Positions 7,228 through 25,101 of a DNA stretch of 64,000 nt are shown here, one piece after another. The notes under the pieces are model-generated. The model ran no database searches. It was not told where the DNA came from and saw only the letters and a list, made by a program, of their open reading frames with translations. Made by a program: the position numbers and the translations under genes. How positions within the stretch are numbered: position 1 is the first letter of the stretch; each line of letters starts with the position of its first letter. The DNA is from Salinisphaera orenii subsp. halophila YIM 95161. Lineage in GTDB: Bacteria; Pseudomonadota; Gammaproteobacteria; Nevskiales; Salinisphaeraceae. The stretch is taken from contig NZ_AYKF01000001.1 of the NCBI RefSeq assembly GCF_003732545.1, positions 124,001-188,000 on the forward strand. The letters are read 5' to 3'.

Positions 7228-7733
7228 AAGACACGACAGACGACGTCCGGCGGCGCGCGGCGGCCATCGAGGTGGCGGTCTTCGACGTCGACGGCGTGAT
7301 GACCGACGGCAAGCTCTATCTCCACGGCCACGGCGAGGAGAGCAAGACCATGCACGTGCACGACGGCCTGGGCATCCAGCGGCTGCAGGCCGCCGGCGTG
7401 GCCGTGGCCGCGATCAGCGGCCGGCCGTCGCCGGCCGTCGCGGCGCGTCTGCATGCGCTCGGCGTCGACTACATCTATCTCGACAGCCACGACAAGCAGA
7501 TGGACTTCGAGGCGCTGCTCGCCGAACTCGAGCTGACGCCCGAACGCGCCGCGGTCATGGGCGACGACCTGCCGGACCTGGGTCTGATGCGCCGGGCCGG
7601 GCTGGCGATGGCCGTCGCCGACGCCGTGCCCGACGTGCGCGAGGCCGCGCACTGGATCAGCGACTGCAAGGGCGGCGAAGGGGCGGTGCGTGAAGCCTGC
7701 GAACTCATCATCGCCGCCCGCAACGCGCACTAG
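7224..7733 (+). CDS. kdsC: 3-deoxy-D-manno-octulosonate 8-phosphate phosphatase
   Basis: KdsC removes the phosphate from Kdo-8-phosphate to give Kdo. The 169-residue protein is a minimal HAD-family C0 phosphatase. Its catalytic motif is FDVDGVMTDG near residue 19, motif II is AISGRPSPAV, and the late acid motif is GDDLPDLGLM. The short uncapped length is typical because the active sites are completed by the tetramer. The ATG lies inside the end of kdsD (ATGA). It is followed by lptC after 12 bases. Confidence 0.96.
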   Translation: MKDTTDDVRRRAAAIEVAVFDVDGVMTDGKLYLHGHGEESKTMHVHDGLGIQRLQAAGVAVAAISGRPSPAVAARLHALGVDYIYLDSHDKQMDFEALLAELELTPERAAVMGDDLPDLGLMRRAGLAMAVADAVPDVREAAHWISDCKGGEGAVREACELIIAARNAH

Positions 7734-7745
7734 CCGGGCCCGGTC

Positions 7746-8300
7746 ATGCTGCGCGTCATCGCCGTTCTGCTCGTGATCGCCGCCGGCGTGATCGCCCTGC
7801 GGTGGGCCGATTCGCCCGATCCCGGCACACCGACCGCGCCGCGCCTGAGCACGCCCGAGAACAGCGACTACTACATGACCGACGCGGTCGTGCACCAGAT
7901 GGATCCCCAGGGCGATCTGGCCTATCGCATGCGGCTGGGCCAGACGTTGCACTTCCCGGACGACTCGGCGCGGCTTCGGGATATTGACGTACACTATCTC
8001 GCAGGCACGAAAACCTACTGGGACGTCACCGCGGCACGCGGCCGGATACCGGCCGGTGAGCGCGACATCTACCTCTATGACGGCGTCGAGGCCGTGCATC
8101 CTCGGCCGAACGGGCCGGTGGTGCGCATCGAGACCGACAACGCCTGGGTCCGACCCGACGCCGATCGCATCGACACCCGGGCCCACGTGACCGCGACCCA
8201 GCCCGGGCAGCGGGTGGAGGGCGACGGCATGGAGGTCGATCTGGATACGGACAAGCTGAGACTGTTGAGCAATGTACAAGTCACCTACACGCCGGATTGA
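7746..8300 (+). CDS. lptC: LPS export system protein LptC
   Basis: This 184-residue protein has one N-terminal membrane helix (about 2-19) and a periplasmic beta-jellyroll domain. It contains the family pattern ENSDYYMTDAVVHQMDPQG. LptC links the LptB2FG ABC transporter to the periplasmic bridge protein LptA. Its 3' end overlaps lptA by 29 bases. Identity rests on the topology, the pattern and the conserved position between kdsC and lptA. Confidence 0.9.
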   Translation: MLRVIAVLLVIAAGVIALRWADSPDPGTPTAPRLSTPENSDYYMTDAVVHQMDPQGDLAYRMRLGQTLHFPDDSARLRDIDVHYLAGTKTYWDVTAARGRIPAGERDIYLYDGVEAVHPRPNGPVVRIETDNAWVRPDADRIDTRAHVTATQPGQRVEGDGMEVDLDTDKLRLLSNVQVTYTPD

Positions 8301-8802
8301 CCGGGCCCGCCTCTGGCTGGCGGCGGCGCTCGTGGTGGCGGGCGGTGCGGCCTGGGCGCAGCAGGAGCCGTTGCCGATCCGGATCGAATCCGACAGCGCA
8401 GAGCTGTCCCAGCAGGAGGGCACGAGCACCTACACCGGCAGCGTCGTGCTCACCCGCGGCGGCCTGACGCTGACCGGCGACAAGCTGGTCGTCACGCGGC
8501 TCAACGATCGCGGCAACGTCAAAGCGGTGCTCAACGGCGCCCCCGCGCGACTGGACAAGCAGCCCGATCGCACCGGCGACGACGTCGTCACCGGCCATTC
8601 CAGCCGTATCGAGTACACCAACGCCGACTCGACCGTGGTCATGCGCGGCAACGCCGTGGTCAACCGCGGCGGCGATCGCATCGCCAGCCAGGTCATCCGC
8701 CACAACCTCGACACCCAGCGCACCCAGGCCGCGCGCGGCGAGAACGACGGCGAGCGGGTGCAGATCACGATCACGCCGCAGAACGACGGCGACGGCTCAT
8801 GA
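8272..8802 (+). CDS. lptA: LPS periplasmic bridge protein LptA
   Basis: This 176-residue protein has a signal peptide ending near residue 30 ([13 protein letters not shown]). An OstA/LptA-type beta domain follows, with [20 protein letters not shown] and the [19 protein letters not shown] repeat pattern. LptA polymerises into the bridge that carries LPS from LptC to LptD. It starts within lptC and ends overlapping lptB by four bases, so the three are coupled. Confidence 0.92.
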
Positions 8803-9563
8803 GCAGCGCGGCGATGGACATCGGCCACGCGGCGGCCGCCGACCGCCTGGTGGCCACGCACCTGAGCAAGCGCTATCGCGGCCGCGAGGTGGTGCGCGAC
8901 GTCAGTCTCGATCTCGGCCAGGGCGAGGTCGTCGGCCTGCTCGGGCCCAACGGCGCCGGCAAAACCACCGCCTTCTACATGATCGTCGGCCTGGTCTCGC
9001 CGGACGCCGGCCGCATCAGCCTCGGCGAACAGAGCCTGGTGGGCATGCCCATGCACAAGCGCGCCAAGCGCGGCATCGGCTATCTGCCGCAGGAAGCCTC
9101 GGTGTTCCGCAAGCTCAGCGTGGCCGACAACATCCGCGCGATCCTGCAGGTGCGTTCCGATCTCGATCGCGCGGGCATCGAACGCGAACTGGCCGCGCTG
9201 CTCGACGAGCTGTCAATCACGCACATCGCTGACTCCACGGGGCTCAACCTGTCCGGCGGCGAGCGCCGGCGGGTCGAGATCGCCCGCGCGCTGGCCGCGG
9301 AACCGCGCTTCATGCTGCTGGACGAGCCCTTCGCCGGCATCGATCCGATCTCGATCGGCGACATCCGCGGCATCATCACGCATCTGAAGAACCGCGGCAT
9401 CGGCGTGCTCATCACCGATCACAACGTGCGCGAGACGCTGGGCATCTGCGAACGCGCCTACATTCTCAGCGACGGCGCCGTCATCGCCGAAGGCACCGGC
9501 GAGGCGGTACTGGCCGATCGCAAGGTACGGGAGGTCTACCTCGGCGAGGATTTCCGACTATGA
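8799..9563 (+). CDS. lptB: LPS export ABC transporter ATP-binding protein
   Basis: This 254-residue ATPase has Walker [10 protein letters not shown], the Q-loop segment [17 protein letters not shown], signature [15 protein letters not shown], Walker [14 protein letters not shown] and H-loop [10 protein letters not shown]. The phrase [16 protein letters not shown] is characteristic of LptB. It powers extraction of LPS from the inner membrane together with LptFG, which are not in this window. Both ends overlap neighbours by four bases, which ties rpoN translation to lptB. Confidence 0.97.
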
Positions 9564-11020
9564 AGCAGTCGCTGAACCTCAACCTATCGCAAAGCCTGAC
9601 GATGACGCCTGCGCTGCAGCAGGCCATCCGCATGCTGCAGCTGTCCACGCTGGATCTGAAGACCGAGATCCAGGAGGCGCTCGAGACCAACGTCATGCTC
9701 GAGGCCGACGACGGCCACGGCGAGGTCGACGCCGGCCAGACGACGGATGACAGCGCCGGCGAACGCCAGACCAAGGACAGCGCCGGGAGCGACGCCGAGA
9801 TCCCCGAGAATCTGCCGGTCGATGCCGACTGGAACGACATCTACGCCGGCAGCAGCAGCCCGGCGCCGGCCGCGCCGAGCAGCGAGGACGACGACTACTG
9901 GGACTACCGCCAGGCCAATCTGACCAGCACCCCCGACCTGCACACCCATCTGACCTGGCAGGCGGACATGCACTCGTTCAGCGCCGGCGAGCGCTCGATC
10001 GCCGCACAGCTGATCGACGCGGTGAACCACAACGGCCTGCTCGAGGACTGGCCGGAGCTGCTCGAACGCCTGACCGACGAGTACGAGACCGACGCCGCCC
10101 GCATCGAATCGGTGCTGGCGGTGGTGCAGGCCTTCGACCCACCGGGCGTGGCCGCGCGCAGCCTCGGCGAGTGTCTGGCCATCCAGCTGCGCCAGCTGCC
10201 GGCGGACACCGCCCACCGCGATCTGGCGCTGGCCATCGTCGAGAACGAATCGCTGGAATGCCTGGCGTCGCGCGACCGCGCCGGCCTGGCGCAGCGGCTG
10301 GATGTCGAGCCCGAGGCGCTCGACGGCGCCATCGCCCTGGTGCAGACGCTGCAACCGCACCCGGGCGAGGCTTTCGGCGATCAGGAGGCCGGCTATGTGG
10401 TGCCGGAGGTGTTCGTCACGCGCCAGTCGTCGCGCTGGCAGGTCTCGCTCAACGCCGAGATCGCGCCGAAGCTTCGCATCAACAGCCAATATCTGGCCCT
10501 GATCAAGCGCGCGGACAAATCCGCCGACCAGACCACGCTCAAGTCGCACCTGCAGGAAGCCCGCTTCTTCCTCAACAGCCTCAAGAGCCGCAACGACACC
10601 CTGCTCCAGGTCGCGCAATGCATTGTTGAAGCCCAGCGCGCTTTTCTGGAGTATGGCGAGGAGGCAATGAAACCGCTGGTGTTGCGCGACGTGGCCGAAC
10701 AGCTCGAAATACACGAATCCACCGTATCGCGGGCGACGGCCAACAAGTACATGCAGACGCCGCGCGGCATCTTCGAACTCAAGTATTTCTTTTCCAGCCA
10801 TGTCTCGACCACCGATGGCGGCTCCGCCTCGGCGACCGCCATTCAGGCGATGATCAAGCGCATGGTCGCATCCGAACCCGATGGCAAACCGCTGTCCGAC
10901 AGCAAGCTCGCGGAGCTGCTGCTCGACAACGGCATTCGCGTGGCGCGGCGCACCGTCGCCAAGTACCGCGAGGCGCTATCGATACCGCCGTCGCACGAGC
11001 GGCGGCGTCAGGCCAGCTAA
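9560..11020 (+). CDS. rpoN: RNA polymerase sigma-54 factor
   Basis: This 486-residue protein has the activator-interacting N-terminal region with [20 protein letters not shown]. An acidic linker covers about 50-115, followed by the core-binding domain. The C-terminal helix-turn-helix ends in the RpoN box [10 protein letters not shown]. Sigma-54 recognises -24/-12 promoters and needs AAA+ activators such as GlrR, which is encoded 10 kb downstream. A consensus target promoter is present at 23044-23060. It overlaps lptB by four bases and is followed by hpf, the standard order. Confidence 0.98.
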
Positions 11021-11050
11021 CGCTCTTCCCAAGCAGAGAAGGAGTACGCG

Positions 11051-11377
11051 ATGAACCTGAACATCTCCGGCCATCACATCGACATGACCGATGCCTTGCA
11101 CGACTATGTCGCATCCAAGATGGGCCGTATCGAGCGTCATTTCGACCACGTCATCGACGCCGAGGTGGTGCTCGAGGTCGAGAAGGTACGTCACAAGGCC
11201 GAGGCGACCATGCAGCTGCGCGGCGCCACGGTGCACGCCGAGTCCACGCAGGACGACATGTACGCCGCGATTGACTGCATGATCGACAAGCTCGACCGGC
11301 AGACGCGGCGGCACAAGGAGAAGGCGAAGGATCATCACAACCGGCAGGCCCGCCACATCAATCTGGATGCCGGTTGA
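11051..11377 (+). CDS. hpf: Ribosome hibernation promoting factor, short type
   Basis: This 108-residue protein has the RaiA/HPF fold, with ISGHHIDMTDALHDYVASKM at the N-terminus and DDMYAAIDCMIDKLDRQ in the second helix. It lacks the long C-terminal dimerisation domain. HPF binds the 30S decoding centre and helps form inactive 100S ribosomes in stationary phase. An AAGGAG ribosome site precedes the ATG. It lies in the conserved slot between rpoN and ptsN. Confidence 0.95.
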   Translation: MNLNISGHHIDMTDALHDYVASKMGRIERHFDHVIDAEVVLEVEKVRHKAEATMQLRGATVHAESTQDDMYAAIDCMIDKLDRQTRRHKEKAKDHHNRQARHINLDAG

Positions 11378-11407
11378 CCGCTTTTCGCAATCGTTGAAAG
11401 GAACGTC

Positions 11408-11872
11408 ATGAATATTGCCGATATCGTTGCCCCCGAGCGGGTCCGTCTTGCCGAGGATGTCCAGAGCAAGAAGCGCGCGCTCGAGCAACTGGCCGAGATT
11501 CTCACCCAGGGCACGCCCTATCTGACCGCCAGCGAAATCTTCAACGGCCTGGTCGCACGCGAGAAGCTCGGCAGCACCGGCATCGGCGACGGCGTTGCCA
11601 TCCCCCACGCCCGCATGAAAGGCACCGACGACTGCGTCGGTGCCTTCATGCGTCTGCCGCAGCCGGTGGATTTCGAGTCCAACGACGAGCAGCCGGTCGA
11701 TCTCGTGTTCGGCCTGCTGGTTCCGGAGCAGTCCACCGAGGCGCACCTCAACATGCTCCGACGCCTGGCGGAGATGTTCTCCGAGAATCAGGCGCTGGCC
11801 GAACTGCGCGACGCCGGCGACGACGCCACCCTGCATCGCGTCCTGCTGGCCCACGATCCGGTCACGCAGTAG
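11408..11872 (+). CDS. ptsN: PTS IIA-like nitrogen-regulatory protein
   Basis: This 154-residue EIIA of the fructose/mannitol fold has the phosphoacceptor His at 67 in DGVAIPHARM. The family loop PVDLVFGLLVPEQ follows. EIIA-Ntr receives phosphate from an HPr-type protein and acts by protein contacts rather than sugar transport, for example on potassium transport and sensor kinases in other bacteria. The partners HPr and enzyme I are encoded 2.4 kb downstream. The ribosome site AAAGGAA is clear. Confidence 0.95.
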   Translation: MNIADIVAPERVRLAEDVQSKKRALEQLAEILTQGTPYLTASEIFNGLVAREKLGSTGIGDGVAIPHARMKGTDDCVGAFMRLPQPVDFESNDEQPVDLVFGLLVPEQSTEAHLNMLRRLAEMFSENQALAELRDAGDDATLHRVLLAHDPVTQ

Positions 11873-11885
11873 CCGGCCGGACACC

Positions 11886-12929
11886 GTGCCGCTGACCGGC
11901 GAGGACGAGTTCGACCAGACCCTCGAGACGCGTCGCGTCTCGGTCGAGACCGTCTTCGCCGAGCTTCGGACCTCGCTCGGTCTGCACTGGCCCCGCCCGA
12001 CGATCGGCGGCCACGCCACCGTGGGCGCCACCCGCATCGACGGCCGGCGCGTACCGATCGTCGGCTATCTCAATTTCATCCATCCGCCGCAGGTCCAGGT
12101 CATCGGCGAGCCGGAGATCGCCTATCTCGATACCATCGAGCCGGATCAGCACGCCCATGTGCTCGAGCGCCTGACCACGGGCGCGACCCGGCTGGTGGTG
12201 GTCGCCGACGATCAGACCCTGGCCGCGCCGCTGCGCGAGGCCCTCTACGGGGCCGGGATCGCGGTATTCGAGAGCCGCGAGAGCGGCCACAAGGCGGCCT
12301 ACCGGATCCGGCACTTCCTCGGCGAGGCGCTGGCCCGCCAGGTCACGCTGCACGGCGTGTTCCTGGAGGTCCTGTCGATCGGCCTGCTGCTGACCGGCGA
12401 TTCCGGTGTGGGCAAGAGCGAGCTGGCGCTGGAACTGGTCAATCGCGGCCATCGGCTGGTCGCCGACGACGCCCCGGAGTTCGCCCTGCTGGGTCCGGAC
12501 GATCTCAACGGCGGCTGCCCCGCCCTGCTGCAGGACTTTCTCGAAGTCCGCGGTCTCGGCCTGCTCAACATCCGCGCGATGTTCGGCGAGGCCGCCATCA
12601 AGCGCCGCAAGCAGCTCGGGCTCATCATCCGGCTCGTGCGGCCGGAGTCGTCGCATCTGGCCGCCGCCGACCGGCTGGCGGGTACCCGCGCCACCCGGCG
12701 CATACTCGATGTCGACATCCCCGAGATCACGCTGCCCGTGGCGGTCGGCCACAATCTATCGGTGCTCGTGGAAGCCGCCTGTCGCGATCACCTGCTGCGC
12801 ATGCAGGGGCATCAGAGCGACCGGCAGTTCGCCGACCGCCAGCGCGCGGCCATGAGCGTGGCACCGGACACCGCCGATCCGGCGGGATCCGGATCGCATG
12901 CGTGTCCACCGGGCGAAGGGCTAGAATGA
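11886..12929 (+). CDS. hprK: HPr kinase/phosphorylase
   Basis: The bifunctional enzyme phosphorylates and dephosphorylates a serine of HPr. The 347-residue protein has an N-terminal domain, Walker A GDSGVGKS at 171-178, and the HprK signature LEVRGLGLLNIRAMFG. The GTG at 11886 is used because no ATG fits before the first conserved block. It leaves a 13-base gap after ptsN and has only a weak ribosome site. The enzyme is absent from enteric bacteria but occurs in other proteobacteria beside rapZ. The HPr in this window carries Ser at 46, the expected target. Confidence 0.95.
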   Translation: MPLTGEDEFDQTLETRRVSVETVFAELRTSLGLHWPRPTIGGHATVGATRIDGRRVPIVGYLNFIHPPQVQVIGEPEIAYLDTIEPDQHAHVLERLTTGATRLVVVADDQTLAAPLREALYGAGIAVFESRESGHKAAYRIRHFLGEALARQVTLHGVFLEVLSIGLLLTGDSGVGKSELALELVNRGHRLVADDAPEFALLGPDDLNGGCPALLQDFLEVRGLGLLNIRAMFGEAAIKRRKQLGLIIRLVRPESSHLAAADRLAGTRATRRILDVDIPEITLPVAVGHNLSVLVEAACRDHLLRMQGHQSDRQFADRQRAAMSVAPDTADPAGSGSHACPPGEGLE

Positions 12930-12960
12930 GCGCAATCACAGCCGAACGAGGAGAGCGCGC

Positions 12961-13818
12961 GTGCGTCTGATCGTGGTGAGCGGCCTGGCCGGCGCGGGCA
13001 AATCCGTCGCGCTCCACATGCTCGAGGACCTGGGCTACTACTGCATCGACAACCTGCCGCTGGGCCTGCTCGGCGAGGTGTCGGTGGCCACCCTGCAGCG
13101 CCAGGGGCTGGACTTCGACCGCCTGGCCGTCGGCATCGACGCCCGGGCTCGGCGCGGCGAGATCGAGGCCTTCCCCAAGCGGATCGAGGAACTGCGCACG
13201 GGCGGCATCGACGTCGAGGTGATCTATCTCCACGCCGACAACGAGACCATCCTGCGGCGGTTTTCCGAAACCCGGCGCAAGCACCCGCTGACCGACGCCG
13301 ACACCTCGCTGATCGACGCGGTCACCGCGGACCGGCGCCTGATGGAGCCCATCGCCACCAAGGCCGATGTCGCCATCGACACCAGCAACACGAACATCCA
13401 TCAGCTGCGAGATATCGTCCGCAATCGAGTGGACGCCACCCGGACCGGCGAGCTGTCGATCCTGCTCCAGTCCTTCGGCTTCAAGTACGGCCTGCCCCAG
13501 GCGGTGGACTTCGTGTTCGACTCGCGCTGCCTGCCCAATCCGCACTGGGTGCCGGAACTGCGCGAGCTCACCGGGCTGGACGCGGCCGTGGCCGAGCATC
13601 TGGCGGCCGAGCCGGCGACCCACGACATGCTCGACGACATCCACGGTTTTCTGGTGCGCTGGCTGCCGGAATTCGCGCGCGAGAATCGCGCTTATGTCAC
13701 GATTGCCGTGGGCTGCACGGGTGGCAAGCATCGTTCGGTCTATCTGATCGAGCAGCTGGCCCGGCGCCTGCGACAGACCTATGCCCAGACGCTGGTGCGA
13801 CACAATGAACTGCATTGA
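12961..13818 (+). CDS. rapZ: RNase adapter / nucleotide-binding protein RapZ
   Basis: This 285-residue protein has Walker A GLAGAGKS at 8-15, a Walker-B-like region, and the C-terminal block VAVGCTGGKHRSVYLIEQL, typical of RapZ/YvcJ. In E. coli RapZ delivers the sRNA GlmZ to RNase E and so controls glucosamine-6-phosphate synthase. The E. coli protein ends in a basic tail needed for RNA binding. This one ends VRHNELH without that cluster, so its RNA role is uncertain. The GTG start has an AGGAG ribosome site. A TAGAAT hexamer at 12922-12927 may add a promoter. Confidence 0.95.
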   Translation: MRLIVVSGLAGAGKSVALHMLEDLGYYCIDNLPLGLLGEVSVATLQRQGLDFDRLAVGIDARARRGEIEAFPKRIEELRTGGIDVEVIYLHADNETILRRFSETRRKHPLTDADTSLIDAVTADRRLMEPIATKADVAIDTSNTNIHQLRDIVRNRVDATRTGELSILLQSFGFKYGLPQAVDFVFDSRCLPNPHWVPELRELTGLDAAVAEHLAAEPATHDMLDDIHGFLVRWLPEFARENRAYVTIAVGCTGGKHRSVYLIEQLARRLRQTYAQTLVRHNELH

Positions 13819-13863
13819 CCGGCGCGCGAGCGCGCGCATGATCGGGGCCGGCCGGGCCATCGC

Positions 13864-14265
13864 ATGATCGGGGTACTGCTGATCACCCACGGCCGCCTGG
13901 GGGCCCATTTCGTGGAGACGGTGACCGGCATGATCGGCGACCTGTCGCGGCCGACGGAGGTGCTGGAAGTGCACCGCCACGACGATCCGGACGAGCGCAG
14001 CCAGGCCGCCGCGGACGCGCTCGCCCGGCTGGACGACGGCGACGGCGTGCTCATCATCACCGACGCCTTCGGGTCGACGCCGAGCAACATCGCCACCCGC
14101 GCCGCCGCCCCGGACCGCACCCGGGTCGTCGCCGGCATCAATCTGTCCATGCTCGTGCGGGTCTACAATTACCCGCAGCTGGCGCTGGACGATCTCGCGG
14201 CATCGGCCATCGAGGCCGGCCGCGCCGGCGTCATGCCCTGTCCCCAGCCCGATCCCAGCCCGTAA
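13864..14265 (+). CDS. PTS EIIA component, mannose/sorbose type
   Basis: This 133-residue EIIA-Man domain has phosphoacceptor His9 in LLITHGRLG and the conserved segment IITDAFGSTPSN. No IIB, IIC or IID domain is attached or encoded nearby, so it cannot transport sugar by itself. In other proteobacteria such lone EIIA-Man proteins sit beside ptsH and ptsI in the nitrogen PTS and are considered regulatory. It lies 45 bases after rapZ and 33 before HPr, within the same operon. Confidence 0.92.
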   Translation: MIGVLLITHGRLGAHFVETVTGMIGDLSRPTEVLEVHRHDDPDERSQAAADALARLDDGDGVLIITDAFGSTPSNIATRAAAPDRTRVVAGINLSMLVRVYNYPQLALDDLAASAIEAGRAGVMPCPQPDPSP

Positions 14266-14298
14266 TCGACCGACAACAACGAACCGACCCAACCGCTT

Positions 14299-14568
14299 AT
14301 GCCCACGCGCGAATTCGCCATCGTCAACAAGCTCGGCCTGCACGCCCGCGCCGCCAGCAAGTTCGTGACCGTCGCCTCGCAGTACGAGGCCGACATCAAG
14401 GTCTCCAAGGACGGCCGCGAGGTCTCGGGCAAGTCGATCATGGGCGTGATGATGCTGGCCGCCGCCCGCGGCTCGCGGATCGAGGTGAGCGCCGAGGGCG
14501 AGGACGCCGAGGCCGCGCTCGACGCGCTCGAGGAACTCGTGCGCGACCGTTTCGGCGAGGGGCAGTGA
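14299..14568 (+). CDS. ptsH: Phosphocarrier protein HPr
   Basis: This 89-residue HPr has His15 in LGLHARAASKFV, the residue phosphorylated by enzyme I. Ser46 lies in GKSIMGVMML, the site used by HPr kinase. Both residues are present, so it can join the PEP relay and respond to HprK encoded upstream. It could equally be called npr because it serves ptsN. It is co-oriented with EIIA upstream and enzyme I 43 bases downstream. Confidence 0.96.
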   Translation: MPTREFAIVNKLGLHARAASKFVTVASQYEADIKVSKDGREVSGKSIMGVMMLAAARGSRIEVSAEGEDAEAALDALEELVRDRFGEGQ

Positions 14569-14611
14569 GCATGCGCCGCCCCGGACAGGCTCGCAGCCGC
14601 CCGGACCGGCT

Positions 14612-16351
<1,740 letters not shown>

Positions 16352-16400
16352 CCCGATAGCGGCGACGTATCCGGCGGGCGGGCCTCGGCGACCCTCGAAC

Positions 16401-16421
16401 TCCGGGAAAATCCGGATTTTT
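16401..16421 (+). terminator. Rho-independent terminator after ptsI
   Basis: A 5-bp stem TCCGG/CCGGA with a six-base loop is followed directly by five T residues. It lies 50 bases after the ptsI stop and closes the long kdsD-to-ptsI series before the mgtE promoter. Confidence 0.6.
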
Positions 16422-16422
16422 C

Positions 16423-16431
16423 TGCTATTTT
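16423..16431 (+). promoter_or_regulatory. Extended -10 promoter of mgtE
   Basis: TGCTATTTT has a TGn extension and a -10 hexamer matching 4 of 6. It lies just after the terminator and 32 bases before the mgtE ATG. The implied leader is only about 25 bases, so there is no room for a magnesium riboswitch. Confidence 0.4.
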
Positions 16432-16462
16432 CTAGACATCCGCCCGTCTTCCGGAGCGCGCG

Positions 16463-17830
16463 ATGAGCGAGCCCGCCACATCCGAAGAGAACGAGATGGA
16501 GGCCCGGCTGGCCTATCTCGACGAAGCGCTCGAATCCGGCCGCATGCGCCGCCTCAAGCCCATGCTGCACGCGCTGCATCCGGCCGAGATCGCGCTGCTG
16601 CTGGAATCGGTGCCGCGCGCCAAGCGCGAAGTCGTCTGGAGCCTCGTCCCCGAGGAGGATCACGGCGAGACGCTGCTGCACGTCAACGACGAGGTGCGCT
16701 CGGAGCTGATCGAGGCCATGGACCACAGCGTCCTGCTCGCGGCCACCGAAGGCATGCCGATCGACGATCTGGCGGACTTCATCGAGGACCTGCCGGATCA
16801 GGTCACCCGGGAAGTCCTGCGCTCGATGGACGTCCAGAACCGCGAGCGCCTGGAAGCGGTCATGTCCTACCCGTCGGATTCCGCCGGCGGTCTAATGAAC
16901 AACGACACCATCACCGTGCGTCCGGACGTGACGCTCGATGTGGTCGGCCGCTATCTGCGCCAGCGCGGCACGCTGCCCGAGGACACCAACACGCTGTTCG
17001 TCGTCTCCCGCTACGGGCGCTATCTGGGCATGCTGACGCTGGCCAAGCTGGTCACGCTCGACCCGGAACGCGACGTCTCGGAGGTCATGGACACCGACCT
17101 CGAGGCCCTGACCGTGGACATGCCCGCCGCCCAGGTCGCCAAGCGCTTTCAGGACCTCGACCTGATCTCGGCGCCAGTGGTCGATCCCGACGGCCGTCTG
17201 GTCGGGCGCATCACCATCGACGACGTGGTCGACGTCATCCGCGATGAGGCCGAACACAGCATCATGACCATGGCCGGTCTCGACGAGGAGGAGGACGTGT
17301 TCGCGCCGATCGCACGCAGCGCCCGCCGGCGCGCGGTCTGGCTCGGCGCCAACCTGTTCACGGCATTTCTGGCCGCCCAGGTGGTCGGCCTGTTCGAGGC
17401 CACGCTCTCCCAGGTGGTCGCGCTCGCCGTGCTGATGCCGATCGTGGCCAGCATGGGCGGTATCGGCGGCTCGCAGACGCTGACCCTGATGATCCGCGGC
17501 CTGTCGCTGGGCCAGATCGGTTTTTCCAACGCCCGCACCCTGCTCGTCAAGGAACTGGCCGTGGCCGTGATCAACGGCCTGCTCTGGGGCGCGGTGGTGG
17601 GCGTGATCGCCGAAGTCTGGTTCGGCAACGCCGTGCTCGGCCTGATCATCGCCGTCGCGCTGGTCATCAATCAGATCGGCGCGGCCGTGGCCGGGGTCGG
17701 CATCCCGCTCGCGATGAAGAAGATGAACATCGACCCGGCGCTCGCCGGCTCCGTGGTCCTGACCACCATCACCGATGTCATCGGCTTCTCCGCCTTCCTC
17801 GGCCTGGGCACGCTGTTCCTGCTCGATTAG
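16463..17830 (+). CDS. mgtE: Magnesium transporter MgtE
   Basis: This 455-residue protein has the three MgtE parts in order. An N-terminal helical superhelix with ALHPAEIALLLESV covers about 1-130, two CBS domains cover about 135-265, and a five-helix membrane domain covers about 285-455. The pore motif region is PIVASMGGIGGSQTLTL. The cytoplasmic part senses magnesium and closes the channel when it is abundant. A CGGAG ribosome site precedes the ATG. It is convergent with pmbA, and the 134 bases between them show no clear terminator. Confidence 0.96.
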   Translation: MSEPATSEENEMEARLAYLDEALESGRMRRLKPMLHALHPAEIALLLESVPRAKREVVWSLVPEEDHGETLLHVNDEVRSELIEAMDHSVLLAATEGMPIDDLADFIEDLPDQVTREVLRSMDVQNRERLEAVMSYPSDSAGGLMNNDTITVRPDVTLDVVGRYLRQRGTLPEDTNTLFVVSRYGRYLGMLTLAKLVTLDPERDVSEVMDTDLEALTVDMPAAQVAKRFQDLDLISAPVVDPDGRLVGRITIDDVVDVIRDEAEHSIMTMAGLDEEEDVFAPIARSARRRAVWLGANLFTAFLAAQVVGLFEATLSQVVALAVLMPIVASMGGIGGSQTLTLMIRGLSLGQIGFSNARTLLVKELAVAVINGLLWGAVVGVIAEVWFGNAVLGLIIAVALVINQIGAAVAGVGIPLAMKKMNIDPALAGSVVLTTITDVIGFSAFLGLGTLFLLD

Positions 17831-17964
17831 GACCTGTCAACGCTTCACTTGATCATGTACACAACTCGGCCGGAGCCGGCATGCAAGATCGTTCGGCGCG
17901 TCGGCGTGTCTGAAGCTGCAAGCCGGCCCGGGTTTCGCGCCGATGCGCGAGCCGCTCGAACACG

Positions 17965-19332
17965 CTACCGACCGGCGATCGTCATCCCGCCGATGAGCAC
18001 CGACGGCGTACGCAGCATGGCGGCGTGCTCGACGTCGTTGCCGACCGCCTCCACGGCGCGAAGCATGTCGGCGAGGTTGCCCGCGATGGTGGCATTCTCC
18101 ACCGGGTAGGCGCGTTCGCCGTTCTCGACCCAGAAGCCGGCGGCCCCGCGTGAATAATCGCCGTTGACGAGATTCACGCCCTGGCCCATGAGTTCGGTGA
18201 CGACCAGTCCGCGGCCCATGCCGGCAACCAGCGCCTCGAAACTCTCGTCGCCCGGGGCGACGTCGAGATTGAACACGCCCCCGGCGTTGCCGGTGTTGGC
18301 CAACCCGAGTCGCCGCGCGGTATAGGCCGACAGTACATAGCTTCGCAGCACGCCCGCGGCGACCAGGGCGCGCTCGCGGGTGGCGACCCCGTCGCCGTCG
18401 AAGCCGGCGCTGCCCAGCCCGCGCGGTCGATGCGGATGCTGGGACAGCGACACCGAAGCGGCCGCGATCGGCTGATCGATGCAGTCCTTGAGGAAACTCG
18501 CGTTGCGATACAGCGCGCCGCCGCTGATCGCGCTGACGAGATGCCCCCACAGGCTGCGCGCCACCCGGGGCGTGAACAGCACGGGCGCCTGCGTGGTCGG
18601 CGGCGTGCGCGCGCCCAGCCGCGCCAGCGCCCGTTCGGCGGCCAGCCGGCCGGTGTCACCGACATCGTCGAGATCGTCGGCGTGGCGGGCCTGCGAGAAG
18701 GCGATCTCGCGCTGCATGCCACCGCTCTCGCGGGCTATCGCGGTACAGGACAGCGCGTGCCGGCTGGCCTGTTCGGCGGCCACGAAGCCGTGCGTGTTGC
18801 CGTAGGCGCTGACCGCGTCCTGCGTGGCCACCGTCGCGCCCTCGGTCTGGTGGATGCGCGCATCGTGATCGAGCGCGGCCGTCTCCAGGGTCAATGCCCG
18901 CTCGAGCGCGTCGGCCGGCGTCAGCGCCCAGGGATGGTACAGCGACAGTTCCGGCCAGTCCCGCGCCATCTCGGCGGCATCGGCGAGCCCGGCGTAGTCG
19001 TCGGCTTCGGTGAAGCGCGCGATCGTGAGCGCCTGCTCGAGCGCGGCGTCCAGGCCCTCGGCGCTGAGGTCGGTGGTGGAGGCACGGCCGCTGCGCTGGC
19101 CGCGATAGACGGTGATCTCGGCGCTGCGATCGCCCTCGTATTCCACCGACTCGCGGTCGCGGTCGCGCGCGGTGACGGACAGCGCGCGGGAGGCCGAGAT
19201 CGCGGCCTCGGCGGTATCGGCGCCGCGCCGGCGCGCCTGTCCGAGCAGGGATTCGAGCTGGGCGCACAGCGCCTGTCCCGTTGGCAGGGGGCGGCTTTCG
19301 GCCGGTGTATCCGGATCACGGTTGTCGGTCAT
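17965..19332 (-). CDS. pmbA: Metalloprotease-family protein PmbA/TldE
   Basis: This 455-residue protein is of the TldD/PmbA family, recognised by the N-terminal block ISASRALSVTARDRDRESVE, the central FLKDCIDQPIA, and the C-terminal MGQGVNLVNGDYSRGAAGFW. TldD-TldE heterodimers process antibiotic peptides such as microcin B17 and degrade unfolded peptides. The zinc site is in TldD, which is not encoded here. The ATG at 19332 is chosen over an upstream GTG at 19344. It is divergent from glrK across 93 bases. Confidence 0.95.
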   Translation of the reverse strand: MTDNRDPDTPAESRPLPTGQALCAQLESLLGQARRRGADTAEAAISASRALSVTARDRDRESVEYEGDRSAEITVYRGQRSGRASTTDLSAEGLDAALEQALTIARFTEADDYAGLADAAEMARDWPELSLYHPWALTPADALERALTLETAALDHDARIHQTEGATVATQDAVSAYGNTHGFVAAEQASRHALSCTAIARESGGMQREIAFSQARHADDLDDVGDTGRLAAERALARLGARTPPTTQAPVLFTPRVARSLWGHLVSAISGGALYRNASFLKDCIDQPIAAASVSLSQHPHRPRGLGSAGFDGDGVATRERALVAAGVLRSYVLSAYTARRLGLANTGNAGGVFNLDVAPGDESFEALVAGMGRGLVVTELMGQGVNLVNGDYSRGAAGFWVENGERAYPVENATIAGNLADMLRAVEAVGNDVEHAAMLRTPSVLIGGMTIAGR

Positions 19333-19425
19333 GGTCGCGCCCACGCGCTCGATCGATGTGGCATGGCGCGAACCCTAGCCCCGCAGCGCATGGCCGCGCA
19401 ATGCAGCCACGGTATGCTGGGCGCG

Positions 19426-20916
19426 ATGTCCCGCTCCGATGCCGCCGACCCCCAGCCCCCGGACACGACGCGGCGCCGCCGTCTGTTCTTTCGCCCGCGC
19501 TCGATCACCGGGCTGCTGCTGACCAGTTTCGGACTGGTCGCGCTGCCGCTGATCGTCGCCATCGTCTTCAGCGTGGTCTACGTCGACCGCCTGAACAACC
19601 AGAGCGAACGGCTGGTCCTGCAGGGCGTGGAGATGACCCGCTACAGCCAGCGCCTGAGCACGCTGCTGACCGCCATGGAGCGCAGTGCGCGCCAGTTCAG
19701 CGTGCTCGAAAGCCCCGATCTGGTCGGCCGCTTCTCGCGTCAGTCGGACGAGTTCGACCGAATACTGGATTCGCTGGCCGCGCTCGAGCTCGACACGCTG
19801 CCGGACTGGAATCTCGATGCGCTGCGGCGCGAGTCGCGCATGCTCTCGCGCGAGCTCGCCGAGCACCCGGAACAGTCGCGCGGCATCGCGGAGCGCCTCG
19901 CCGCCATGCAGCGCGAAATCGATCTGATCGCCGAGCAGGGCAATCTGTTCGTCGACCGCGAGCTGTCGCGCCTCCAGGCGACCGCCGCCGATGCCCGGCT
20001 GTTCCTGCTGCTCTGCGTCTTCGCACTGATCCCCGGGGCGCTGCTGCTCACCGGCTTCTTCGTGATCGTGATCGCCCGGCCGCTGCAGCAGATCGCCGCC
20101 GGCGTCTCCCGGCTCGGCGACGGCGATTTCTCCGAGCGCATCCGGGTGGTCGCCCCGGCCGCCGAACTGGACACCCTCGGCGCCCGGCTGGACTGGATGC
20201 GGCGACGCCTGGCCACCCTCGAAAACGAGAAACAGCAGTTCATCCGGCACATGTCGCACGAACTCAAGACGCCGCTGGCCAGTATTCGCGAGGGCGCGGA
20301 ACTGTTGCGCGACGGCACGGTCGGCCCATTGAGCACGCCGCAGGCGGAGGTCGCCGACATCCTGCAGCGCAACAGTCTCGAACTGGCCAGCCTGATCGAG
20401 AACCTGCTCGACTTCGCCGCCTGGCAGCAACAACACGCTAAACTGGAGTACGAGCGCTTCGATCTGCGCGCGCTCACCGAGGCGATCGTGGCCCGTCAGC
20501 GGCTCACGATCGAGGGGAAACAGCTCGATGTCGCGATCTCGGCACAGGTCACCGAGATCACGGCGGACCGGGACCGTATGCACCTGATCATGGACAACCT
20601 GATCGCCAACGCGGTGAAGTTCTCGCCCGCGGGCGGCACCATCGGCGTTCACGTAGAGCGGCTCGACGCCGGCACCCGCATCTGCGTGAGCGACGCCGGG
20701 CCGGGCGTGCCGGCGAACGAACGCGACGCCATCTTCGACGCCTTCTTTCAGGGCGCGCGCGGCGCCGACGCCGACAGCGGCGTACGCGGCACCGGCATCG
20801 GCCTGTCGGTCGTGCGCGAATGCGTTCAGGCCCACGGCGGCGAAATCCATGTCGAAGACGCTCGCGAGGGGGGCGCCATGTTCTGCCTGCACATCCCCGA
20901 TCGTCATGCACTCTGA
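19426..20916 (+). CDS. glrK: Sensor histidine kinase GlrK (QseE)
   Basis: This 496-residue inner-membrane kinase has TM1 at about 29-52, a periplasmic helical segment to about 190, TM2 at about 191-217 and a HAMP domain. The HisKA box follows with His278 in FIRHMSHELKTPL, then an HATPase domain with NLIANAVKFSP, DAGPGVP and GTGIGLSVV. It is the kinase of the GlrKR system, which responds to envelope signals and activates the sigma-54 regulator GlrR. In-frame ATGs at 19390 and 19414 are also possible starts. Its end overlaps the lipoprotein gene by 11 bases. Confidence 0.9.
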   Translation: MSRSDAADPQPPDTTRRRRLFFRPRSITGLLLTSFGLVALPLIVAIVFSVVYVDRLNNQSERLVLQGVEMTRYSQRLSTLLTAMERSARQFSVLESPDLVGRFSRQSDEFDRILDSLAALELDTLPDWNLDALRRESRMLSRELAEHPEQSRGIAERLAAMQREIDLIAEQGNLFVDRELSRLQATAADARLFLLLCVFALIPGALLLTGFFVIVIARPLQQIAAGVSRLGDGDFSERIRVVAPAAELDTLGARLDWMRRRLATLENEKQQFIRHMSHELKTPLASIREGAELLRDGTVGPLSTPQAEVADILQRNSLELASLIENLLDFAAWQQQHAKLEYERFDLRALTEAIVARQRLTIEGKQLDVAISAQVTEITADRDRMHLIMDNLIANAVKFSPAGGTIGVHVERLDAGTRICVSDAGPGVPANERDAIFDAFFQGARGADADSGVRGTGIGLSVVRECVQAHGGEIHVEDAREGGAMFCLHIPDRHAL

Positions 20917-21456
20917 ACGTCGGACGCACACGCTCTGCGTGGCGGCGATGCTCGGCGCGCTGCTGGTCGCCGGCTGCGCGCACCGACCGGCCGCAGAGAC
21001 CGAGGACGTCGCGCACGAGACCGAGCAGGCCGCGGATCCCGCGATCGACCTGCTGCTGTACGCGCACGAGCTGCAGTCGGGCAGCCCCGAAGCGCGCGCC
21101 AAGGCGGTCGAGCAGGCCCGGTCCGCGGTCGACGACGCACCCGACGCCCGGAACCTCGCCCGGCTGGCTCTGGCCTACGGCGCGCCGAAACAGACGCGCT
21201 ACACGCCGGATCTGGCCGCACGCTACGCCGGCCGCGCGCTGGAGGCCGACGATGCGCGCTGGAACGCTGCGGCACGACAGTACCTTCGGGATTACCGACG
21301 CTTCTACACCCGGCTCACCGAGCAGAGTCCGAGCGACGACGACAGCGAGGACGCCCGGGCGCGCATCGCCGAACTCGAGGCCCAGCTCGACGAGGCCCAT
21401 CGCAAGCTGCGCGAGATGGCGACCATCGAGGAACGGCTGGGCTCCAGTCCGCCCTG

Positions 21457-21457
<1 letters not shown>
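20906..21457 (+). CDS. qseG: QseG-like outer-membrane lipoprotein
   Basis: This 183-residue protein has a lipoprotein signal peptide with lipobox LLVAGC (Cys near residue 23). A helical domain follows, ending in a predicted coiled coil (DARARIAELEAQLDEAHRKL). In enterics QseG lies between the kinase and regulator genes and binds the kinase to modulate its activity. Sequence similarity is hard to judge by eye, so the name rests mainly on position, lipobox and helical content. It overlaps glrK by 11 bases and glrR by one base. Confidence 0.72.
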
Positions 21458-22815
<1,358 letters not shown>

Positions 22816-22823
22816 CCGCGGCC

Positions 22824-22841
22824 TGTTGCCCTGCGACGACA
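22824..22841 (+). promoter_or_regulatory. Possible third GlrR operator (distal)
   Basis: TGTT-N10-GACA fits the TGTC-N10-GACA pattern reported for GlrR sites except at one base. Over 18 positions it shares 13 with the operator at 22868. It begins 8 bases after the glrR stop and may be coincidental. Confidence 0.35.
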
Positions 22842-22867
22842 CGCGGGAATCGGCATCCCGCCCCAGC

Positions 22868-22885
22868 CGTCGCCATACGGCGACA
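22868..22885 (+). promoter_or_regulatory. GlrR-type operator 1
   Basis: CGTC-N10-GACA contains a perfect palindrome GTCGCC-atac-GGCGAC. It shares the 13-base core GTCGCCATACGGC with the site 64 bases downstream. It fits the known TGTC-N10-GACA recognition pattern at seven of eight fixed bases and lies about 175 bases upstream of a consensus sigma-54 promoter. Confidence 0.65.
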
Positions 22886-22931
22886 TGGTCTTTTCTTTTA
22901 TTTCAATCTCTTAGGCGACGACGCGATTGAC

Positions 22932-22949
22932 TGTCGCCATACGGCAACA
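22932..22949 (+). promoter_or_regulatory. GlrR-type operator 2
   Basis: TGTC-GCCATACGGC-AACA repeats the core of the upstream operator. The 64-base offset is close to six helical turns, so both sites face the same side of the DNA. It lies about 95 bases upstream of the -24 element, a normal enhancer distance. An AT-rich stretch at 23010-23040 lies between and could bend to form the loop. Confidence 0.65.
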
Positions 22950-23043
22950 GGTTTGTGCCGCTGCGGGAGGCTACGGCACGTGCTGGCGCCTTCCTGCTCT
23001 AGAGAAAAGTCACAGGATTTTGTTTTTAAAAACATTATTCGGA

Positions 23044-23060
23044 TTGGCACGGGGGTTGCT
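23044..23060 (+). promoter_or_regulatory. Consensus sigma-54 promoter
   Basis: TTGGCACG-GGGG-TTGCT matches every fixed position of the sigma-54 consensus YTGGCACG-N4-TTGCW, with GG (23046-23047) and GC (23058-23059) exactly 10 bases apart. Transcription would begin near 23071, 29 bases before the EF-hand gene. Confidence 0.88.
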
Positions 23061-23099
23061 CCATCAGCATTAACACGTGATCGGAAACACAGTCGGATC

Positions 23100-23387
23100 A
23101 TGAAGAAACGCTACGCCGTAATCGCCGGGATCGCCGTCGCGATCCCGCTGGCAACGACCTCTCTCGTAGCCAGCGGCACCGGCACCGACGCTTCGGCCTC
23201 CTGGGCGACCATGGATGCTGACGCCGATGGCGCGTTGTCGCCGGAGGAAGTCGCGAGCACGCCCTGGGAGGCCAAGTTCGACGACATGGATGCGAACGAC
23301 GACGGCAAGGTGACGCGCGAAGAGTTCAAGCAGTACATGGCGTCGATGCAAAAGCAGCAGGACAACGAGCAGGACAACAGTATGTAG
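23100..23387 (+). CDS. Small secreted EF-hand calcium-binding protein
   Basis: This 95-residue protein has a signal peptide (MKKRYAVIAGIAVAIPLATT, with cleavage near 26). Two canonical EF-hand loops follow: residues 39-50 (DADADGALSPEE) and 64-75 (DANDDGKVTREE). Both have Asp or Asn at positions 1, 3 and 5, Gly at 6 and Glu at 12, so both should bind calcium. A Gln/Asn/Asp-rich tail ends the protein. It would act in the periplasm or outside the cell. It is the only gene downstream of the sigma-54 promoter and is followed by the hairpin repeats. I do not recognise a named family, and function beyond calcium binding is unknown. Confidence 0.85.
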   Translation: MKKRYAVIAGIAVAIPLATTSLVASGTGTDASASWATMDADADGALSPEEVASTPWEAKFDDMDANDDGKVTREEFKQYMASMQKQQDNEQDNSM

Positions 23388-23392
23388 GAGTT

Positions 23393-23412
23393 CGGCAGCG
23401 TGGCTGCCAGCC
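23393..23412 (+). other. Small hairpin preceding repeat unit 1
   Basis: GGCAGC-gt-GGCTGCC forms a short stem directly after the EF-hand stop and is followed by five T residues at 23413. A matching hairpin GGCAGC-cc-GGCTGCC (about 23602-23616) precedes unit 3. It may be a weak terminator or part of the repeat unit. Confidence 0.5.
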
Positions 23413-23495
23413 TTTTTCGCTCGGCCGGGCCGGCGTCTCCCCGGTCCCCCCCCTCGTGCCTCGGCGTGGGCCGGCCCGGTCGCAGCGAATTCAAA
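23413..23495 (+). repeat. Long-hairpin repeat unit 1
   Basis: First of three tandem units of about 80 bases. The left arm TTCGCT (23416-23421) pairs with AGCGAA (23484-23489). The inner arm CCGGGCCGGC (23425-23434) pairs with GCCGGCCCGG (23470-23479). The apical core CCCTCGTGCCTCGGCGTGG (23451-23469) is identical in all three units. The joint between the two stems is imperfect here. Confidence 0.85.
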
Positions 23496-23518
23496 GGCGG
23501 TGGACACGAGGCCATCGG

Positions 23519-23600
23519 TTTTCGCTTTGCCGGGCCGGCATCTCCCCGGTCCCCCCTCGTGCCTCGGCGTGGGCCGGCCCGGTCAAAGCGAAATTCAAAA
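23519..23600 (+). repeat. Long-hairpin repeat unit 2
   Basis: TTTCGCTTTG (23520-23529) pairs perfectly with CAAAGCGAAA (23584-23593). CCGGGCCGGC (23530-23539) pairs with GCCGGCCCGG (23573-23582), leaving one bulged base. The core at 23554-23572 is identical to the other units. The unit starts 106 bases after unit 1. Confidence 0.9.
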
Positions 23601-23620
23601 CGGCAGCCCGGCTGCCATCG

Positions 23621-23700
23621 TTTTCGCCCGGTCGGGCCGGCGTCTCCCGGTCCCCCCTCGTGCCTCGGCGTGGTCCGGTCCGGCCGGGCGAAATTCAAAA
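23621..23700 (+). repeat. Long-hairpin repeat unit 3
   Basis: TTTCGCCCGG (23622-23631) pairs perfectly with CCGGGCGAAA (23684-23693). Relative to unit 2, three to four bases have changed on both arms so that pairing is kept. The core at 23655-23673 is unchanged. The unit starts 102 bases after unit 2 and runs into the terminator stem. Confidence 0.9.
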
Positions 23701-23724
23701 GACCGCTTCGGCGGTCTTTTTTTT
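23697..23724 (+). terminator. Strong intrinsic terminator of the EF-hand/repeat transcript
   Basis: AAAAGACCGC-ttcg-GCGGTCTTTT is a 10-bp stem with a UUCG tetraloop followed by more T residues (T run 23713-23724, broken only at its first bases by the stem). The A-run on the other side makes it usable in both directions, so it also ends mpl. Confidence 0.9.
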
Positions 23725-23757
23725 GGGCGCCGTTTTTGCGACGTCCGGGCGGACCGC

Positions 23758-25101
23758 TCAGAGCGCGTCGAGAAGACGCTCGTGAATGCCGCCGAAGCCC
23801 CCGTTGCTCATCACGACGACAGTATCGCCCGGGGCCGCGGCGGCGACGACCGCAGCGACCAGATGGTCGATGTCGTCGGCCAGCGTCACCCGGTCCCCGA
23901 GGCCGGCGAACACGGCATCGGCATCCCAGTCGATATCCGCGGCATAGACGTAGACGGCGTCCGCACGCTCGAAGCTCGCGGCGAGCGTGTCGGCGTGGAC
24001 GCCGCGGCGCATGGTGTTCGATCGCGGTTCGAAGACCACGAGAATGCGGCCGTCCCGCGCACCGGCGCGCAGGCCGTCCAGCGTCGTGCGAATGGCGGTC
24101 GGGTGATGCGCGAAATCGTCGTAGACGGCGATGCCGCCGGGCGTGCCCCGAAGCTCGAGCCGACGCCGCACGCCACCGAAAGCCGACAGCGCCTCGATGC
24201 CGACCTCGGGGGCGACGCCCACATGGCGCGCCGCCGCGAGCGCCGCGAGCGCGTTATCGCGGTTGTGGGCCCCGCCGAGCGACCAGGCCAGCTCGCCGAC
24301 GTCGGCCCCGTCGAGACGGATCCGGAGCCGGTCGCCGGCCGCGGTCATCGCCTCGGCCTGCCAGCCGGCGTCCCCATTGAAGGCGACGGTCGGTGTCCAG
24401 CAGCCGCGGGCGAGCACGTCGTCGAGCGCGGGCTCGGCGGCGTTGTGCACGATCTGGCCGCCCGCGGGCACGGTGCGGACCAGGTGATGGAACTGCCGCT
24501 TGATGGCCTCGAGATCGTCGAAGATGTCGGCGTGGTCGAATTCCAAATTGTTCAGAACCAGGGTCCGCGGGCGGTAATGGACGAACTTGGCCCGCTTGTC
24601 GAAGAAAGCGGTGTCGTACTCGTCCGCCTCGACCACGAAGAAATCGCTCGACCCCATGGCCGCCGAGCGGCCCAGGTCCGGGGCGATGCCGCCGATGAGG
24701 AAACCGGGCGCCAGCCCCGCGTGCTGCAGAATGTGGGCGAGCATGCTCGCGGTCGTGGTCTTGCCATGGGTGCCGGCGACGGCCAGCACCCAGCGCCCGC
24801 GAAGGACGTTCTCGGCCAGCCACTGCGGGCCCGAGGTGTACGCCAGGCCGGCGTCGAGGGTGTGTTCGACCGCCGGATTGCCGCGCGTCATGGCATTGCC
24901 GATCACGACCTGGTCGGGCGCAGGGTCGAGATGGGCCGCGGCATAGCCGTCCATGACCTCGATGCCGGCGTCGGCCAGCTGGGTGCTCATGGGCGGATAC
25001 AGGCCGGCGTCGGAGCCGGTCACGCGATGCCCGGCCGCGCGCGCCAGCAGCGCCACGCCGGCCATGAAGGTGCCGCCGATACCGAGGATATGAACGTGCA
25101 T
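23758..25101 (-). CDS. mpl: UDP-N-acetylmuramate:L-alanyl-gamma-D-glutamyl-meso-diaminopimelate ligase
   Basis: Mpl recycles peptidoglycan by joining the released tripeptide to UDP-MurNAc in the cytoplasm. The 447-residue protein is a Mur ligase. The N-terminus MHVHILGIGGTFMAG is the UDP-binding domain, VAGTHGKTTTASML is the ATP loop, and HNRDNALAALAAARH and YDDFAHHPTAIRTTL are the central and C-terminal signatures. The DDFAHHPTAI phrase is typical of Mpl/MurC. The ATG at 25101 fits the family start. It lies five bases after a membrane-protein gene. Confidence 0.95.
   Translation of the reverse strand: MHVHILGIGGTFMAGVALLARAAGHRVTGSDAGLYPPMSTQLADAGIEVMDGYAAAHLDPAPDQVVIGNAMTRGNPAVEHTLDAGLAYTSGPQWLAENVLRGRWVLAVAGTHGKTTTASMLAHILQHAGLAPGFLIGGIAPDLGRSAAMGSSDFFVVEADEYDTAFFDKRAKFVHYRPRTLVLNNLEFDHADIFDDLEAIKRQFHHLVRTVPAGGQIVHNAAEPALDDVLARGCWTPTVAFNGDAGWQAEAMTAAGDRLRIRLDGADVGELAWSLGGAHNRDNALAALAAARHVGVAPEVGIEALSAFGGVRRRLELRGTPGGIAVYDDFAHHPTAIRTTLDGLRAGARDGRILVVFEPRSNTMRRGVHADTLAASFERADAVYVYAADIDWDADAVFAGLGDRVTLADDIDHLVAAVVAAAAPGDTVVVMSNGGFGGIHERLLDAL

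Follow-up and report, generated by a model that had tools for sequence, protein, structure and literature searches.

A tandem-hairpin RNA downstream of glrR in Salinisphaera, very probably under GlrR and sigma54 control

The window that we analysed, a stretch of 64,000 nucleotides from Salinisphaera orenii subsp. halophila YIM 95161, carries three long hairpins in tandem between glrR and mpl (Table 1). They very probably belong to a structured RNA under the control of GlrR and sigma54; consensus binding sites and synteny point to this control. As the best overall explanation we propose, tentatively and with a confidence that falls somewhat short of probable, a multivalent regulatory RNA that would be induced by GlrR and sigma54 and act via its repeated loops. 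In this scheme, phosphorylated GlrR would bind the sites near -221, -177 and -113 and fire the sigma54 promoter, and the transcript would stop at the terminator before mpl. The working part would be two to five long hairpins with short hairpins between them, each long hairpin presenting the same loop of about 20 nt. The RNA would be the output of the envelope-related GlrK/QseG/GlrR sensing pathway and act in trans as a multivalent ligand. That it does so as a decoy or sponge, titrating a loop-specific RNA-binding partner, is the least certain part of the proposal, and we rate it as possible rather than probable.

Table 1. Positions of the array, its putative control elements and the neighbouring genes in the window
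Feature	Position	Strand	Description	Basis
rpoN (sigma54)	9560..11020	+		
rapZ	12961..13818	+	some 10 kb before the array; possible upstream sensor	
sensor histidine kinase	19423..20916	+	glrK by position	histidine kinase models
qseG-like gene	20849..21457	+	sits between glrK and glrR	weak match, E 8.3e-5, below cut-off
glrR (qseF)	21457..22815	+	sigma54-dependent response regulator	best NCBIfam match GlrR, E 3.6e-176, below curated cut-off
putative upstream activating site TGTTGCCCTGCGACGACA (TGT-N12-ACA)	22824..22841	+	-221	
putative upstream activating site CGTCGCCATACGGCGACA	22868..22885	+	-177; one end base off consensus	
putative upstream activating site TGTCGCCATACGGCAACA (TGT-N12-ACA)	22932..22949	+	-113	
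predicted sigma54 promoter TTGGCACGGGGGTTGCT	23044..23060	+		consensus match
small EF-hand protein, 95 aa	23100..23387	+	apparent signal peptide (by eye)	Pfam EF-hand
hairpin unit 1	23415..23490	+	long stem; C-rich core of the apical loop at 23442-23464	fold, covariance-model match
linker 1	23491..23519	+	short predicted hairpin	
hairpin unit 2	23520..23593	+	loop core 23547-23567	fold, covariance-model match
linker 2	23594..23621	+	short predicted hairpin GGCAGC/GCTGCC	
hairpin unit 3	23622..23693	+	loop core 23648-23668	fold, covariance-model match
intrinsic terminator	23697..23724	+	UUCG loop, then T run	sequence, fold
mpl	23758..25100	-	convergent neighbour; start approximate	TIGR01081, E 3.4e-181

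The three tandem units had been described in a first-pass annotation of this DNA, and we find them again, each folding into a long hairpin of -44.7 to -45.7 kcal/mol (z -3.2 to -4.8, with 200 dinucleotide shuffles as the reference). The apical core that they share, given there as 19 bases, is slightly longer and comprises 22 bases (CCCCCCTCGTGCCTCGGCGTGG). The outer stems that had been quoted as an example of both arms changing together are correct: they read TTTCGCTTTG/CAAAGCGAAA in unit 2 and TTTCGCCCGG/CCGGGCGAAA in unit 3. The UUCG terminator that was said to close the array is present as well, with a predicted hairpin of -13.5 kcal/mol, and it has an A run on the opposite side, so that it could be used by mpl too. 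The loop of about 20 nt consists of CGGU, a C run and UCGUGCCUCG; array loops are C-rich and, for the most part, unpaired in centroid folds. A short hairpin is predicted in 23 of 24 linkers, the sequences of which are mostly unlike between genomes. In linker 1, the heptamer CACGAGG (window 23505-23511) complements the loop sequence CCUCGUG. The same heptamer is seen in L011, is absent from the remaining linkers, and occurs also in the glmS leaders of genomes G000 and G006 (L140).

The spacing of the units is not quite what had been claimed. Instead of 106 and 102 bases we measured 105 and 102 between the 5' stem ends, or 103 and 101 between the 3' anchors, and since both 105 and 102 are divisible by three, the argument against coding that was built on the spacing fails as written. 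Protein coding is still unlikely, and we rejected it on account of C-run changes of one and two bases between units and species, the compensatory stems and the excess of G-U pairs described below.

Salinisphaera is a member of the Gammaproteobacteria, and blastn finds the array in all 14 of its genomes. The numbers of hairpins per genome are 3, 3, 3, 4, 5, 3, 3, 2, 2, 2, 2, 2, 2 and 2, that is, 38 in total with a range of 2-5, and the array of the window is 97% identical to that of another Salinisphaera genome. Units 3-5 of G009 (L014_3 to L014_5) are nearly identical, and near-identity of neighbouring units suggests tandem duplication. We also looked in the own genome for the scattered copies by which the first-pass annotation would have recognised a REP-like repeat. 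The 332-base array region gave one blastn match, and a covariance model found the three array units and nothing else; a dispersed REP or BIME repeat was rejected on the grounds of this single locus. Exact matches to a 16-base core pattern occur three times in this genome, all inside the array, and 13 further matches appear if up to two mismatches are allowed, compared with 2 for the reversed control.

Outside the genus, the order-wide search with a covariance model built from the array units matched one further genome, G001, which belongs to another genus of the same family and contains a single hairpin match (E 1.8e-7), so that 15 of 85 genomes were matched altogether; in a sample of the class, 3 of 369 genomes were matched, all of them Salinisphaera. 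Both searches used stricter filters, which can lose weak matches. A blastn match in G001 (E 4.8e-5) spans the terminator end of the query only and was rejected as an array homologue. The scan of genome contigs with the core pattern yielded 15 records, including L033, L039, L041 and L043 from outside the genus; we rejected these four as homologues, as their flanks do not build the hairpin (judged by eye). Two loci titled otherwise, L037 (Endozoicomonas sp. G2_2) and L029 (Lysobacterales bacterium), do carry the array, and their titles may be wrong or outdated.

Next to conservation of the locus, we see selection on the stems. Covariation was counted in a 16-pair stem for the 21 of the 38 units that have one stem geometry, and was compared with 500 shuffles. 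Of the 17 units that were omitted, 14 have their 5' arm shifted by one column (alignment A2) and three (L010_3, L011_3 and L023_1) are without the extra 3' base. Standard pairs occupy 94.6% of the stem cells (90.7% in shuffles), there are 15 double-change cells (5.7 in shuffles) and the covariation score is 0.262 (0.189 in shuffles); none of the 500 shuffles reaches any of these values, in a control that inflates the significance of covariation for related sequences. When the partner is slid by 1-3 columns, pairing drops to 20-52%. One of the five measures, the count of further pair types, was unexceptional, as 134 of the 500 shuffles equalled or exceeded it. Support is weaker for the inner helix next to the loop, which is 87.1% paired and has double changes in two pairs, a number reached by 84 of 500 shuffles. 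For all 38 units in A2, RNAalifold predicts 13 pairs, of which 5 have double changes.

Because G-U pairs far exceed A-C pairs in the stems, we conclude that selection acts on the plus-strand RNA. With both kinds of pair scored alike, the main stem of the 38 units contains 71 G-U against 8 A-C, an excess to which strand-biased mutation could contribute. G-U is the more frequent of the two in 34 of the 38 units and A-C in one; the plus-strand fold is more stable than the minus-strand fold in 34 of 38. Mean identity between genomes (665 pairs) is 96.7% for the loop core, compared with 77.6% and 70.3% for the arms. Apart from the number of bases in the C run (6-8), 35 of the 38 loop cores are alike; two read UC5 in place of the C run, and one has a U for a C near the end. 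Since three tests agree, a neutral origin is unlikely despite the caveats about the covariation control and about mutation bias. The claim of a structured RNA with covarying stems and a near-fixed loop in several copies is thus supported.

The putative control region is conserved together with the hairpins. A sigma54 box precedes the array in the same orientation in all 14 genomes, and an exact TGT-N12-ACA site occurs 60-260 bases upstream at least once in each of them, although not all three sites of the window are found in each. In E. coli, QseF (GlrR) is described as binding three TGTN12ACA sites upstream of glmY (PMC6075780). glrR and the array are on one contig in 13 of the 14 genomes and on separate contigs in G009. 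As far as can be judged from these genomes, what stays constant is glrR followed by QseF/GlrR-type sites, a sigma54 promoter, the hairpin array and the terminator. This arrangement also bears on the idea of a DNA-level element, such as a REP/BIME-like repeat or a recombination site, which inverted repeats in tandem with a variable copy number would fit. The single locus in the own genome, the constant orientation after the sigma54 box, the strand-specific tolerance of G-U and the apical conservation all speak against such an element, and we regard this explanation as largely refuted and extremely improbable.

As for the neighbouring genes, the qseG-like gene has no Pfam match, and none among the 25 matches listed for the glrK candidate exceeds its cut-off. 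Just 5' of glrK, at 6250-19344 of the window, there are kdsD, lptB, rpoN, hpf, ptsN, hprK, rapZ, EIIA-man, HPr, mgtE and a PmbA/TldD gene. rpoN, rapZ, glrKR and the array RNA lie within about 14 kb.

The hairpins had been linked to the transcript of the EF-hand gene, and this link turned out to be too narrow. The EF-hand ORF lies upstream of the array in 9 of the 14 genomes; it is absent in G012, G015, G005, G010 and G008, all of which have kept the array, the promoter and the terminator. In the GlrR tree this corresponds to at least three separate losses (G015, G012 and the clade of G005, G010 and G008), if the ORF is assumed to be ancestral and bearing in mind that some forks are moderately supported. 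G012 and G015 contain what appear by eye to be decayed remnants of the ORF. The predicted transcript measures 342-907 nt depending on the species and 654 nt here (about 23071 to 23724); in G005, G010 and G008, where it is predicted to be 342-360 nt long, we found no ATG-started ORF of at least 40 codons before the first loop. Because the EF-hand ORF is absent from five genomes and the array has been kept in all, the conserved product appears to be the RNA, with the EF-hand protein dispensable. Of the earlier reading, the structured multi-copy RNA holds and the EF-hand gene as its anchor does not; a more apt description is a GlrR-sigma54 regulatory RNA whose predicted transcript also carries, in some species, the ORF of a small EF-hand protein. 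The protein itself has a weak similarity to lanmodulin LanM (E 4.5e-6, 26.8 bits with a cut-off of 135).

The same comparison makes it very improbable that the array serves the EF-hand mRNA in cis, as a 3' element with a role in its stability or in protein binding. The position of the array 3' of the ORF in one predicted transcript in nine genomes would agree with such a role; the five genomes without the ORF, two of them with the apparent remnants, retain the array and its promoter nevertheless. A riboswitch for a downstream gene was rejected because the predicted transcript ends at the terminator facing the convergent mpl. A known Rfam family (Rfam 15) was rejected as well: within 22800-24000, a search up to E 5 gave 10 matches, none of which reaches its gathering score; the best is rsmX, with 24.5 bits and a gathering score of 56.

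CsrB and RsmX are sponge RNAs that show a repeated loop motif multivalently, in variable copy number, with GGA in their hairpin loops. The array likewise presents a repeated loop, and its copy number varies; unlike theirs, its loop cores are C-rich and about 20 nt long, and none of the 38 contains GGA.

The RNA that GlrR/QseF is known to control is GlmY; together with GlmZ, it has been described as conserved in Enterobacteriaceae. In the titles and abstracts of the open-licence literature on GlrR/QseF, sigma54 and RapZ, we were not able to find any account of a GlrR-controlled RNA outside that setting, nor did we find the array RNA in open-licence titles and abstracts on small RNAs of Salinisphaera. 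GlmY (RF00128) and the array have in common that they lie beside glrK-qseG-glrR (qseEGF), with a sigma54 promoter, TGT-N12-ACA sites upstream and at least two stem-loops. They differ in that the array is 3' of glrR whereas GlmY is upstream of glrK, that the array loops are repeated and near-identical, and that RapZ is altered here at several RNA-contact positions. Because the GlmY model (RF00128) and the GlmZ model (RF00083) each match 0 of 14 genomes while the E. coli control is positive, the array RNA is not a GlmY, though its control logic looks alike.

With GlmY and GlmZ unmatched in these genomes, one could think of the array RNA as a ligand of RapZ, a functional stand-in for GlmY the two or more hairpins of which would engage the RapZ tetramer and relay the status of envelope precursors. 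rapZ is found in the same window, and RapZ_C in 14 of 14 genomes. The RapZ residues H142, K170, R184, H190, R196, R238 and K251 are retained, while K194, K203, F208, R211 and K270 of the E. coli protein (the last of which we take to be a relevant position) are replaced here by E, A, H, A and A, and the protein ends with LVRHNELH. Apart from K270, the positions that we compared are among those named in PMC9841335. According to the same source, E. coli RapZ binds two GlmZ stem-loops, one per CTD dimer, and every array has at least two hairpins. On the other hand, RapZ is described there as reading shape and charge, for which a fixed loop would not be needed, and according to PMC7073468 the domain with which it binds RNA is confined to Enterobacteriaceae. 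We read the glmS leaders of 13 of the 14 genomes: the longest complement to the loop is 7 bases in two of them (G000 and G006), 6 in a third and no more than 5 in the other ten; G000 and G006 are near-identical genomes, and their 7-base complement may be a matter of chance. In sum, we consider RapZ improbable as the bound partner. A place for RapZ upstream, acting on GlrK/GlrR, is easier to support. For E. coli, an interaction of RapZ with QseE/QseF when GlcN6P is low is described in PMC9841335.

We favour a multivalent ligand because the loop is repeated, the units appear to have been duplicated in tandem, and no extended complement is shared throughout the genus. Perfect 13-mer complements of the loop number 38 in the 14 genomes, and all of them lie inside arrays. 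What speaks against a decoy is that a near-invariant loop of about 20 nt would be long for a motif recognised by a protein. A close rival is a multi-copy antisense RNA, in which the C-rich loops (CCCCCCUCGUG) would pair with the G-rich ribosome-binding sites of several mRNAs, potentially by a short seed and possibly after cutting into single-hairpin RNAs, as in CcsR/cuckoo (CIN1). We think of this as a possibility on the doubtful side.

The layout of the locus is that of ccaF1-CcsR1-4 (cuckoo, CIN1) of the alphaproteobacteria, where a promoter for a stress-type sigma factor and a small ORF are followed by homologous RNAs in tandem and then a terminator, and where RNase E processing is described (PMC10253847); the largely unpaired, C-rich loops would likewise suit pairing with mRNAs. 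The two systems are unlike in that the alphaproteobacterial locus has a DUF1127 protein and RpoH promoters instead of an EF-hand protein and sigma54, and in that 5 of the 14 Salinisphaera genomes do without the small ORF. Furthermore, outside the arrays there are 14 distinct sites, spread over 7 of the 14 genomes, where the 10-mer complement GCACGAGGGG precedes an ATG by 2-14 bases, compared with 2 sites for the reversed control, which does not allow for the G-rich bases that are expected before an ATG in ribosome-binding sites. The ATG opens a frame of more than 100 codons at 8 of the 14 sites, and in G000 and G006 the glmS leader has the 7-base complement CACGAGG near the start codon. However, the 10-mer sites are not shared between genomes: only 3 of the 14 are related, being one element in G005 and G010, and among the other genomes five have no such site before an ATG and two have it in the array only. 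With one mismatch, the 13-mer complement gives 13 sites outside the arrays, all unrelated to one another, as against 20 in the control. The conservation of the loop also extends beyond a normal seed. In summary, the searches for loop complements in the 14 genomes revealed no antisense target common to the genus. Within the 64-kb window, four complements of 8-9 bases were found in the array only, except for CGAGGGGG at about 20865 inside glrK. At L178, L179 and L186 (G005 and G010), there is a repeated element with GCACGAGGGGCGATAGATG before an ATG.

For a GlrR-controlled RNA outside Enterobacteriaceae, the locus is a concrete candidate with clean genetics, as it offers one locus, one promoter, a variable number of hairpins and natural lines without the protein. 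If the RNA works in the way that we propose, one sensor would have recruited different RNAs in different lineages, and the loop would point to a new RNA-binding partner or regulon. A more general view would be that the GlrK/QseG/GlrR-sigma54 pathway drives, in Salinisphaera, an unrelated RNA of its own that serves as a modular sponge, with 2-5 near-identical C-rich loops that capture a loop-specific RNA-binding protein, and that GlrR-driven RNAs arose independently in separate lines of the Gammaproteobacteria, with the coding part repeatedly discarded. We consider this view rather unlikely.

Among 16 GlrR loci outside the genus, two have both the site type and a sigma54 box after glrR, namely L088 (G018) and L094 (G075). 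At L088, which is from another family, two activating-type sites and a sigma54 box lie 3' of glrR; the sequence after them is C-rich and folds strongly, and it may represent another RNA driven by GlrR. In G001, the hairpin that matches the covariance model is at 1501-1567 on the minus strand of L058. On the same strand, at about 900-1360, we see by eye a QseF-type site (TGTCCCTTATTGGCAACA) and a weak sigma54-like box, and also a second hairpin, which has a C-rich loop and precedes a terminator-like run, in the vicinity of mpl and a qseG-like sequence; the best glrR match of this genome is on a different contig. At L094, the activating-type sites and the sigma54 box 3' of glrR are followed by small, secreted-looking ORFs, one of which resembles a BON-domain protein by eye.
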